DNA from: Bartonella gabonensis
GTDB lineage: Bacteria; Pseudomonadota; Alphaproteobacteria; Rhizobiales; Rhizobiaceae
Direction: 5' to 3'
Assembly: GCF_903679515.1 (NCBI RefSeq)
Contig: NZ_CAHOYM010000002.1
Location: 62,001 to 126,000, forward strand
DNA: 64,000 nt
The position numbers and the translations under genes are program-made. The notes under the pieces were generated by a model. The model did no database searches. It was not told where the DNA came from and saw only the letters and a list, made by a program, of their open reading frames with translations. Position 1 is the first letter of the stretch, and each line of letters begins with the position of its first letter. Positions 55,600 through 59,860 of this stretch are shown in pieces.

Positions 55600-58014
55600 T
55601 CAATGACGAAGATAAGCGCCTGTCATTTTAGTGACATTTTCTATTACTTTTGCAGCAATTTCTTCTAGGTCTTTATCGGTCAAAGTGCGTTCAATCGGTT
55701 GAATAACAATCTCAATAGCAATAGATTTTTTATCTTCACCAAAGCTTTGATCTTCAAAAAGATCAAAAATCTGTACGGAGTGAATAAGTTTTTTATCGAC
55801 TCCCTGAGCAGCACGAACAATAAGAGAAGAAGCAATCGCCTTATCAACGATAAATGCAAAATCACGCCGCACCATTTGAAATGGCGATAATTTCAAAGGA
55901 GGACGGCTTTTTGTTGTTTTTTTCTTTGGTTCTGGAATTTGATCTAGAAAAATTTCAAAGCCGCATAAAAGACCATTGATATCTAATTTTTCTAAGGTTG
56001 CTGGATGAAGAACACCAAAAAAACCAAGAATAATCTTTGATCCAAGTTTTATGACTCCTGAACGGCCTGGATGATACCAATCGGGGGCGCTAACTTCAAT
56101 TTGTACTTTTTCAACATCTATATCGCATGCTTCTAAAACAGCTAAAGCATCTGCTTTGGCATCAAAAACATCAACAGCTGTAGCATTTCCATTCCAAAAA
56201 CGCCCAGCTCCTTCAAATTGCTCTGTGCCACGACGAATCCCACTCACAACACGTCGTTGCTTATCTGGGATATCGCCTTCATAAATGCTGGAAACTTCAA
56301 ACAAAGCAAGATCGGAAAAACCACGATCAGCATTTCTTTGCGCTGCCATAAGCAAACCAGGTAAAAGAGAAGGGCGCATCACTGACATATCAGCGGCAAT
56401 AGGATTGACCAATTTAAGCTGTGCTTGACCTCCCCCAAAAGCAAGAGCCTGATTTTCAGAGATAAAAGACCACGTTACCGCTTCTTTCATACCGCGATGT
56501 GCTAAAGCCAAACGGGTAGCCCGTGAACGAATTTGCGCGCATGTTAAAACTTGATCTTTTGCTTCTGTGAAGTTTTCCAAAGGAATAGGTTTAATTTTAT
56601 CTAACCCATAAATTCTCATGATTTCTTCCACCAAATCGGCTTTACCCATAATATCAGGGCGCCATGATGGTACTTTTACTGTAACGACATCTCCTTTTCC
56701 CTCAACGCAAAATCCAAGTTTCGTTAAAATAGAGATGACTTTTTCAGGCTCTATTTCCAAACTTGTTAAACGTTTAATTTCAGAAAAAGGAAAAGCGATC
56801 TGTTTGGTTTCTTGTTGCTGATAGCCAACAATTTTCGCCTTAGATATCTCGCCACCACAAAGACGTAAGACCAATTCTGTTGCAATCTCAAGCCCTGTTC
56901 CCATAAAAGCCGGATCAACACCCCGTTCAAACCGATAACGTGCATCACTGATAAGACCTAATGTTCGCCCTGTTTGTGCGATGCTTTGCGCATCCCAAAG
57001 CGCTGATTCAATAATAACGCGCCGCGTCGTCTCATCACAGCTTGTTCTCTCACCACCCATGATACCAGCAATGGAAACAACACTCTCTTCATCGGCAATA
57101 ACACAATCTTTCATATCTAAATTATAGGTTTTTCCATTCAGTGCTTGAAGCTTTTCACCTTCATGGGCGCAGCGTACATACAAATTGCCTTTAATCTTAT
57201 CCGCATCAAAAACATGGAGCGGATGACCAAGGTCAAAACTGATGTAATTGGTCATATCAACAAGAGCATTAATCGGTCTCAAACCAATTGCATTCAAACG
57301 TTGTTGCATCCACTGTGGTGAAGCGCCATTTTGCACATTACGCACTTCACGCCAAGCAAAACCTAAGCATAACGATCTGCTGGACGAGAAATCCAAAGAA
57401 ACATCAAGTGGTGTTTCAAAGGTAACATCGAATTGTGATAAGGATAATTCTTTTAATTTTCCCATTCCTGCAGCAGCAAGATCACGGGCAATGCCGCGAA
57501 CACCTGTGCAATCAGAACGATTGGGAGTCAAGACAAGATCAATGATTGGATCATCTAGACCAGCATAAGCTGCAAATGTCCCTCCAATAGGTGCATCTTC
57601 TGGAAGTTCGATAATCCCATAATGTTCACCTGATAATTCAAGCTCGGACGATGAACACATCATTCCAAAACTTTCAACACCGCGGATTTTTCCTATCGAT
57701 AGCGTTACATCAAGTCCTGGTACATAAGTCCCTGGTAGCGCAAGGACACCAACAAGCCCTGCACGTGCATTTGGTGCCCCACAGATAACTTGTAGAGGTG
57801 TACCAGAGCCTGTATCGACTGATAAAATCTGAAGTTTATCTGCATCAGGATGTTTTTCTGCCGTTAAAACTTTTGCAATCACAAATCCTTTTAAAGAAGA
57901 TCGATCATCAACGTGATCAACCTCAAGGCCTATAGATGTTAGTTTTTCACAAATTTCATTTAAAGATGCATCTGTCTCTAAGTGATCTTTTAACCACGAC
58001 AAAGTAAATTTCAT
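55600..58014 (-). CDS. pheT: Phenylalanyl-tRNA synthetase beta chain
   Basis: PheT is the large subunit of the (alpha-beta)2 enzyme that charges tRNA-Phe. It carries the editing site that clears Tyr-tRNA-Phe. The 804-residue protein has the tRNA-binding EMAP-like domain (about 40-150, with HPDADKLQI), B3/4 and B5 domains, the core repeat with RRFERG-like segment ([11 protein letters not shown]) and the C-terminal FDX-ACB domain. The start at 58014 gives [12 protein letters not shown], the family N-terminus. It lies 32 bp after pheS. Confidence 0.96.
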
Positions 58015-58046: not shown

Positions 58047-59129
58047 TCACACATTTCTATTAGGAAAAAAAGCAGGCATATCAAAGCAGCGAAAGCCATA
58101 ATGGTCTAACCAACGTAGATCGGCATCAAAAAAAGCCCGTAAATCAGGCATACCGTATTTCAACATGGCAATGCGATCAATGCCCATACCCCATGCAAAA
58201 CCTTGATATTCATCGGGATCTAAGCCAACATTTTTCAACACATGAGGATGCACCATTCCGCATCCTAAAATTTCCAACCAATCCTGTCCTTCTCCAAATT
58301 TTACTTCTGAACCAGAGCGATCACATTGAATATCCACTTCCATAGATGGTTCTGTAAAAGGGAAAAAAGAGGGACGAAAACGCATTTTTACTGAAGAAAC
58401 TTCAAAAAATTCTTTACAAAAGGTTTCATGCAGCCACATCATATGGGCAATGGTGGAGGTTTTATCAATGACAAGACCTTCGACCTGATGAAACATGGGC
58501 GAATGCGTTGCATCCGAATCCATACGGTAAGTTTTCCCAGGAATAATGATCCGTATCGGTGCTTGTTGTTTTTCTAGTGTGCGAATTTGTACAGGTGAGG
58601 TATGGGTGCGCAATAATTTGCGTTCTCCCATTTTATCAACATCAAAAAAGAAGGTATCATGCATTTCGCGCGCTGGATGACCTTCAGGAAAATTCAATGC
58701 CGTAAAATTGTAATAATCTGTTTCAATATCTGGTCCTTCTGCAAGAGAAAAACCCAACTTCGTATAAATGGCGATAATTTCCTCAATCACTTGTGAAATA
58801 GGATGAATACGCCCCCGTTCCATAGGCGAAGAGCGAACAGGCAAGCTAACATCAACTGTTTCACGAGAAAGACGGATATCCATGGCTTGTCTTTTCAAAA
58901 GATCACGCTTTTGCGCCCATAAATCTAAAATGCGATTTTTTAACCCATTAAGAACCGGACCAATTTTTTTGCGCTCGCTAGCCTCCATCTTTCCTAATGC
59001 TTTTAATTTTTCAGAGATGCTGCCTTTTTTACCCAATGCTGCAATACGCACTGTTTCAAGTGCCTGTTCATCACCCGCAGCTTCTAAGGCTAAACAAATT
59101 TCTTGTTCCAGACGCTCAATATCGTTCAT
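58047..59129 (-). CDS. pheS: Phenylalanyl-tRNA synthetase alpha chain
   Basis: PheS holds the aminoacylation site. The 360-residue protein has an N-terminal coiled coil, class II motif 2 ([12 protein letters not shown] ... [19 protein letters not shown]) and motif 3 ([18 protein letters not shown]). The start at 59129 gives [13 protein letters not shown] 17 codons upstream lies inside the attenuator hairpin and is unlikely. The gene is 93 bp downstream of rplT with a terminator-like hairpin in between. Confidence 0.96.
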
Positions 59130-59149
59130 ATTTTTGCCTATTTTTTTAA

Positions 59150-59222
59150 TAAAAAAACCCGCACTCGCAATAGCCAGCACGGGACCTCGAATAAATAAAT
59201 GCTTAAGAGAACACGACTGGCT
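59150..59222 (-). promoter_or_regulatory. Candidate attenuator between rplT and pheS
   Basis: On the minus strand CCCGTGCT and AGTGCGGG (59183-59157) form an 8-bp stem with G-T pairs, followed by seven T: a terminator placed inside an operon. A competing pairing is visible: AGCCAG (59222-59217, right after the rplT stop) is complementary to CTGGCT (59177-59172) in the terminator arm and loop. Pairing there would break the terminator and let pheST be transcribed. The signal that would choose between the two is not seen; no Phe-rich leader peptide is evident. Confidence 0.5.
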
Positions 59223-59623
59223 TACTTGACAGCGCCTTCAAAAGCATTAGGTGTTGTATCTTTTAAATATTCTAAAGCTTTTTTTGCCGAAGCGACTAAA
59301 GCAGAAAATGCTTCCGCCTCATAGATTGCTATATCTGAAAGAACTTTACGATCAACTTCAATACCGGCTTTTGATAAGCCATCAATAAAACGTCCATAAG
59401 TTAAACCTTCTGCACGAACAGCTGCGTTGATTCTCTGAATCCACAACGCACGGAAAGTACGCTTTCTATTTTTGCGGTCACGATAAGCGTATTGTTTTGA
59501 ACGATCAACCGCTGCCTTCGCTGCACGAATAGTATTTTTACGACGACCGTAAAATCCTTCAGCTTGTTTAAGAACTTTTTTGTGCTTAGCGTGTGCTGTC
59601 ACACCTCTTTTCACACGTGCCAT
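59222..59623 (-). CDS. rplT: 50S ribosomal protein L20
   Basis: The 133-residue basic protein begins [20 protein letters not shown] and contains [17 protein letters not shown] and [10 protein letters not shown], the conserved L20 elements. L20 is needed for early 50S assembly and in some bacteria represses its own operon. It follows rpmI after 33 bp and precedes pheST. Confidence 0.97.
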
Positions 59624-59656: not shown

Positions 59657-59860
59657 TTAATGACCATTCGGCAAATAATGCTGAATGACTTTTTTAGCAT
59701 CTTGTTCACACAAAACCATTGTTCCACGTGCATCGCGAATAAATTTATTCGAACGCTTAATCATGCCGTGGCGCTTACCGGCAGCTCCTACTTTAATTTT
59801 GCCTGACGCAGTGATTTTAAACCGCTTTTTAGCGGATGATTTGGTCTTCATCTTGGGCAT
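59657..59860 (-). CDS. rpmI: 50S ribosomal protein L35
   Basis: The 67-residue protein begins [20 protein letters not shown] and has [19 protein letters not shown], as in L35. The start at 59860 is the family start; an earlier start at 59893 would add 11 unrelated residues. First gene of rpmI-rplT-pheS-pheT. infC, which often precedes it in other bacteria, lies elsewhere in this window. Confidence 0.97.

Follow-up and report, generated by a model that had tools for sequence, protein, structure and literature searches.

The C-terminal tail of a ribosomal protein probably does the work of a leader peptide in Bartonella gabonensis and its relatives. In a 64,000-nucleotide stretch of its 1.97 Mb genome, which is the whole of the DNA analysed and is called the window throughout, the spacer between rplT and pheS carries what we judge, with reasonable though far from full confidence, to be a ribosome-coupled attenuator of pheST whose leader 'peptide' is the tail of L20, with a UUU control codon through which we infer that phenylalanine is sensed. 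With a shade less assurance we favour the broader proposal that a universal ribosomal protein gene serves here as an attenuator leader, and that a single UUU in the L20 tail of this family senses charged tRNA-Phe and so controls pheST. The rare tail TTT is probably the sensor of a switch between rplT and pheST that is conserved across Bartonella, Brucella, the rhizobia and allied bacteria.

The four genes of the operon, rpmI, rplT, pheS and pheT in that order, all lie on the minus strand (Table 1; the name rpmI is presumed from the standard rpmI-rplT gene order), and a plus-strand reading that had also been folded was dropped for this reason. No promoter was listed by a pattern scan of the rplT-pheS spacer, and no dedicated leader ORF of at least 20 aa occurs there on the minus strand. 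The longest pheS frame begins at a GTG at 59180, inside the terminator 5' arm, and since the likely start is the ATG given in Table 1, automatic annotation may misplace the pheS start too far upstream.

Table 1. Features of the operon and of the proposed attenuator, with positions in the window
Feature	Position	Strand	Basis
rpmI (L35)	59657..59860	minus	ORF and start read from sequence
rplT (L20, 133 aa), proposed leader gene	59222..59623	minus	ORF and homologue matches
rplT stop TAA	59224-59222	minus	
Tail Phe codon TTT, proposed control codon, 18 nt 5' of rplT stop	59240..59242	minus	
Segment 1, codons E-G-A-V; hairpin P1 partner of segment 2 across the stop	59228..59239	minus	
Segment 2, the A arm GCCAGTCG, directly 3' of rplT stop	59214..59221	minus	
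GCCAG, first bases past rplT stop	59221-59217	minus	
Upper part of antiterminator P2	59185..59210	minus	
Segment 3, 5' terminator arm CCCGTGCTGGC, common to P2 and P3	59173..59183	minus	
Terminator loop TATT, between CCCGTGCTGGC and GCGAGTGCGGG		minus	
Segment 4, 3' terminator arm GCGAGTGCGGG; P3 is the terminator stem	59158..59168	minus	
Seven-T tract	59151..59157	minus	
pheS, regulated gene; start ATG 59129	58047..59129	minus	
pheT, next operon gene	55600..58014	minus	Start and name by ORF inspection

An initial annotation of this DNA had described a terminator with a G-T-containing stem and a seven-T tract inside the operon, and such a terminator is indeed present on the minus strand as CCCGTGCTGGC/GCGAGTGCGGG, its stem holding U-G and G-U pairs and one G-G mismatch; 33 A/T-rich bases separate GCCAG from the whole unit, CCCGTGCTGGC-TATT-GCGAGTGCGGG. 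The complementarity of AGCCAG to CTGGCT (59177-59172), also remarked on there, is real, and the placing of AGCCAG just past the rplT stop is the part that needs correction, its first A being the last A of the stop codon. Both the A arm and the terminator 3' arm are complementary to the terminator 5' arm, and we propose that the four segments may pair as P1 (1 with 2), as the antiterminator P2 (2 with 3) or as the terminator P3 (3 with 4). Taken by itself, the window sequence gives a z of -0.99 for the fold of the whole spacer, -1.50 for a shorter spacer piece and -2.36 for the antiterminator piece; in shuffles of the A-arm stretch its match to the 5' terminator arm has p = 0.02, and a consensus terminator scan of the window does not list this terminator. 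Such single-sequence evidence is marginally above chance, and the real support comes from the comparison with relatives.

For that comparison, rplT was matched in 70 of 71 genomes of the genus and 197 of 199 of the family; of the 70 matched in the genus, 69 (all but G058) supplied rplT ends, as did part of the family genomes, 80 named records and genomes of the order. The 284 unique loci became 274 scored loci once eight near-duplicates, L113 (short) and L296 (N) had been dropped, and these comprise 231 with the attenuator (64 from the genus Bartonella and 167 others), 17 from the family without it, which were sorted by eye, three with insertions between the stop codon and the A arm, and 23 from other families. 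A terminator is detectable in 31 of the 40 loci without an A arm (16 of the 17 from the family, 15 of the 23 from other families), and these 31 are the controls; as the own-family members were sorted by eye as lacking the element, that half of the control set is a chosen one. A fixed cut-off on the helix score, with no sorting by eye, is passed by 215 of the 274 loci. Related genomes enter all locus counts as if they were independent, which makes the size of a contrast weigh more than any p value.

The stretch from the rplT stop to the 5' terminator arm folds as an antiterminator in 231 of the 274 scored loci. Mean z for P2 is -3.14 in these 231 versus 0.04 in the 31 controls (-0.16 in the 16 from the family and 0.25 in the 15 from other families), and it averages -2.01 in the 64 Bartonella loci and -3.58 in the 167 others; values below -2 occur in 195 of the 231 attenuator loci versus a single control (L124). 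Some pairing past the stop is not diagnostic, for at least four of the first 14 post-stop bases pair with the 5' arm in all 231 attenuator loci and in 19 of the 31 controls, and at least eight do so in 224 and 9, respectively; it is the energies that set attenuator loci apart from controls. In an alignment of 39 of 42 clustered sequences (L136, L279 and L301 were left out as poorly aligned), 80.3% of P2 cells are paired, a level reached by 7 of 500 shuffles, as against 29.9-51.0% when the pairing is slid. For P3 the paired fraction is 93.2%, with five pairs changed on both sides. Both P2 and P3 are conserved, and the 5' arm that they share lets only one of them form at a time.

The initial annotation had proposed a search of relatives for compensatory changes in both pairings, and the two fared differently: covariation of the terminator is significant (its score is reached by 0 of 500 shuffles), whereas that of the antiterminator, on the automatic alignment, is not (79 of 500), a weakness that probably comes in part from misaligned upper stems. 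Compensation can be read from the sequences among L096, L257 and L273, where CCAGCGC/GCGCTGG becomes CCGGCGC/GCGCCGG and TTCCCAA/TTGGGAA becomes CACAAC/GTTGTG. In most relatives P2 extends beyond six bases, its upper stem being TTCCCAA/TTGGGAA in many rhizobia and weak in Bartonella; its sequence is variable, and the most constant part belongs also to P3. Loss of the two pairings in relatives had been named as one outcome that would count against a two-state attenuator between rplT and pheST, and both are instead kept across the family, which supports that assignment. Three points go beyond it, namely the longer antiterminator of most relatives, a third hairpin across the stop codon and the TTT in rplT as the likely control signal.

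That third hairpin, P1, pairs the final codons of rplT with the A arm. It is paired in 82.7% of cells versus 29.8-52.4% when slid, 10 of 500 shuffles attain its covariation score, and its mean z is -2.28 in the 167 non-Bartonella loci, -1.52 in the 64 Bartonella loci and -0.47 in the 31 controls, 22 of which also have a P1-like pairing. At a synonymous site, the third base of an Ala codon, 90 of 142 classified non-Bartonella loci (25 of the 167 were left unclassified) are pairable versus 83.9 expected with partners shuffled, a count reached by none of 2000 shuffles; the base is mismatched in the remaining 52, of which 29 are G-A. Scored against rplT usage, the two most biased of 109 codons are Ser AGC at position -4 from the stop and Phe TTT at -6. 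Of the 100 loci with Ser at -4, 97 use AGC, against 4% for the rest of rplT, a bias that fits P1. This third pairing, which includes leader coding sequence, is supported, and is weaker in Bartonella.

How such a set of hairpins might be thrown by a ribosome can be sketched. Where Phe-tRNA is sufficient, a ribosome would reach the rplT stop and cover segments 1 and 2, leaving P3 to form and transcription to terminate; where no ribosome is present, P1 would sequester segment 2 and P3 would again form. A ribosome slow at UUU would cover segment 1 and leave segment 2 free, whereupon P2 could arise ahead of the synthesis of segment 4 and transcription would run on into pheST. Which segments count as covered or free follows from the generally known size of the ribosome footprint, and on that size the position of the control codon fits a ribosome stalled over segment 1 with segment 2 free; the distance from the Phe codon to the stop is 18 nt in 163 of the 167 non-Bartonella loci and 21 nt in three. 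The structures and the UUU preference are computed results; the ribosome positions, the kinetics and low charged tRNA-Phe as the signal are what we infer. In both species folded (L001 and L103) the Phe-stalled partial transcript adopts P2, and once segment 4 is included the equilibrium fold of the same state is the terminator. As the stability of P1 and P3 together also exceeds that of P2 in 230 of 231 loci, antitermination must be kinetic, as is the switching of known attenuators.

A Phe-rich leader peptide had been reported as not visible, which is literally true, and one conserved Phe codon in the rplT end (59242-59240) was overlooked; the accompanying suggestion that the control signal may differ was apt, the likely signal being this rare TTT within rplT. 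L20 in the family mostly ends in ...NAFE[SG]AVx or ...NEFExAVx, and among the matches listed from other families of the order most L20 proteins end near residue 115-123, family f28 being the clear exception. Among the non-Bartonella attenuator loci with a tail Phe, 161 of 166 encode it by TTT (L247 has Tyr instead); in the same loci TTT makes up 70 of 684 other rplT Phe codons and 218 of 1596 Phe codons in the pheS stretches examined. TTT occupies codon -6 in 158 of 163 loci, where it ranks second among the 109 scored codons, and in 148 of 157 once identical ends are collapsed. In Bartonella the tail TTT (59 of 63) says little, since the other rplT Phe codons are also mostly TTT (182 of 256).

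Two pairing partners were tried as reasons for keeping TTT and rejected: TTT persists in 64 of 68 Phe-bearing loci that lack CAAG in the A-arm region, and in 77 of 82 loci without the GCT at codon -7 that would form a GCTT/AAGC hairpin. By the partners tried, the TTT is unexplained. TTT is also kept in L160 and L213, where the attenuator is missing, which counts against the reading preferred here. Nine loci of the family with RAVGEK in the L20 tail lack the element by eye; two of them, L300 and L307, match a model of it weakly. In L160, from the genus member G063, the tail has the Phe but the terminator is another one and an A arm is not clearly seen; pheS was not found within roughly 600 nt downstream of it.

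The same P1, P2 and P3 would be equally at home in an attenuator that is ribosome-coupled and not specific to phenylalanine, reporting rplT translation at large (ribosome flux, drugs or general starvation), with UUU serving only, by its slowness, to synchronize ribosome and RNA polymerase; we hold this to be unlikely, if well worth entertaining. The six f28 loci have no attenuator and a similar tail with Phe or Tyr, encoded by TTC or TAC in five (terminators there are plain in five loci, with none found in L191), and because FE-x-AV is kept even so, part of the Phe conservation is at the level of the protein; on this view only the slowness of the codon may be kept for timing. A single Phe codon is moreover a weak sensor, which counts against Phe sensing given that pheM is Phe-rich, and the attenuator is retained without a tail Phe in L030 (Leu, TTG) and L247 (Tyr, TAC). 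What such a general reporter leaves unexplained is why the conserved slow codon should be one for phenylalanine before the genes of Phe-tRNA synthetase, and TAC, judged by codon preference, would not be expected to be slow in L247. L030 and L247 are natural tests of Phe sensing.

It is improbable that the element senses nothing and works as a constitutive partial terminator to keep L20 at a higher level than PheST, the A arm merely lowering termination efficiency: P3 is clear, and the 31 of 40 loci that have a terminator without an A arm agree with such a device, but P1, its placement at the stop codon and the bias to AGC and TTT would be left without explanation. Least probable of all is that read-through is set by L20, some other protein or an RNA acting in trans, bound to P2 or P3. 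In its favour, the leader RNA of the L35 gene is a known target of L20 (PMC2704228); against it, no L20 leader or other cis-element reaches the Rfam threshold in the window, sub-threshold Rfam matches look like chance, and the P2 sequence varies, with its least variable part shared with P3. At curated score Rfam finds only tRNA in the window, with no Phe leader, L20 leader or T-box, and no such family in L103, L045 or L096; a permissive Rfam scan of 59040-59330 gave none of the three either.

The distribution of the element was followed with a model. This model, R1, built from 39 diverse rows, was tried on 90 chosen loci, none of them in its alignment, and gave at least 43.5 bits in all 47 attenuator and three insertion loci tested, no match at E up to 1 in the 23 loci from other families and none in 12 of the 17 own-family loci without the attenuator, the other five matching weakly (L160, 29.6; L050, 28.9; L307, 22.4; L300, 21.6; L122, 15.9 bits). 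Under stricter filters, by which weak matches are lost, R1 matched 13 of 297 genomes of the order, all from the family, and in the class, of 289 genomes, that of the window plus one weak match. The latter (G751, E 3.6e-4; stretch L320) was rejected as chance, there being no rplT or pheS by tblastn and, by eye, a different coding sequence; in the genome of the window itself R1 has one strong match, the next standing at E 0.09. With that one match taken as chance, the attenuator set is seen, in these order and class samples, only in the family.

Wherever the sequence of an attenuator locus runs on for at least 1400 nt (123 loci), pheS is present further along in the same orientation, and in 103 of these loci it begins within 350 nt. 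Nine loci from several genera (L035, L040, L044, L082, L094, L097, L109, L077 and L120) have an extra gene of about 270-305 codons between attenuator and pheS; in eight of the nine its protein has VW[VI]KR near the start and on inspection resembles a kinase. The attenuator still sits right after rplT in these loci, which would bring the extra gene under its control as well. The insertions in L099, L236 and L102, of roughly 60 to 100 nt between stop and A arm with the remaining attenuator present, would uncouple a ribosome at the stop codon from the A arm.

Set beside known systems, the locus has the downstream gene for the same amino acid (pheS) that marks a classical attenuator and lacks the short dedicated leader ORF with several cognate codons. 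In E. coli rph-pyrE, reportedly described by Bonekamp et al. in 1984, translation of the upstream gene coupled to transcription decides read-through; there a full-length upstream gene is the leader, as is proposed for rplT, and the geometry here fits, but the signal in that operon is UTP where a codon is proposed for this one. Searches for attenuators usually look for a short leader ORF enriched in a single amino acid, and they would pass over the present one, with its proposed leader in the gene of a ribosomal protein and its lone control codon. The rplT-pheST site may already be contained in the comparative studies of attenuation by Vitreschak et al. (2004) and by Lopatovskaya et al. (2010). 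As far as the available text of PMC5371410 goes, E. coli pheM is a Phe-rich leader peptide with alternative stem loops, and rplT-pheM-pheST resembles the present locus in operon site, in the choice between terminator and antiterminator and in the Phe-tRNA synthetase genes downstream; here, unlike there, the place of a separate leader ORF is taken by the rplT end with one Phe codon.

Within rhizobia, the portion available of PMC10117765 describes the Sinorhizobium meliloti trp attenuator (trpL/peTrpL), likewise a case of leader-peptide attenuation, but with a dedicated 14-aa leader ORF and not at an aminoacyl-tRNA synthetase operon. Attenuation at S. meliloti duf1127, according to the available part of PMC12218461, depends as here on translation of an upstream ORF, which there, unlike rplT, is a short uORF, the attenuation being presumably Rho-dependent and relieved by tetracycline; neither rplT nor pheS occurs in the text. 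The site goes unmentioned in the accessible portions of PMC12218461, PMC4117421, PMC2704228, PMC4833913, PMC10117765 and PMC2873474, and by title and the start of the abstract no rhizobial or alphaproteobacterial rplT-pheST attenuator is described among the papers listed, a list mostly outside the subscription literature.

If true, the proposal means that a leader peptide has in effect been fused to ribosomal protein L20, which suggests a reason for the lineage-specific tail of that protein. Selection on a synonymous codon can, in this way, point to a sensor. The proposal predicts that an essential synthetase is regulated in Bartonella, Brucella, Rhizobium, Mesorhizobium and their relatives.
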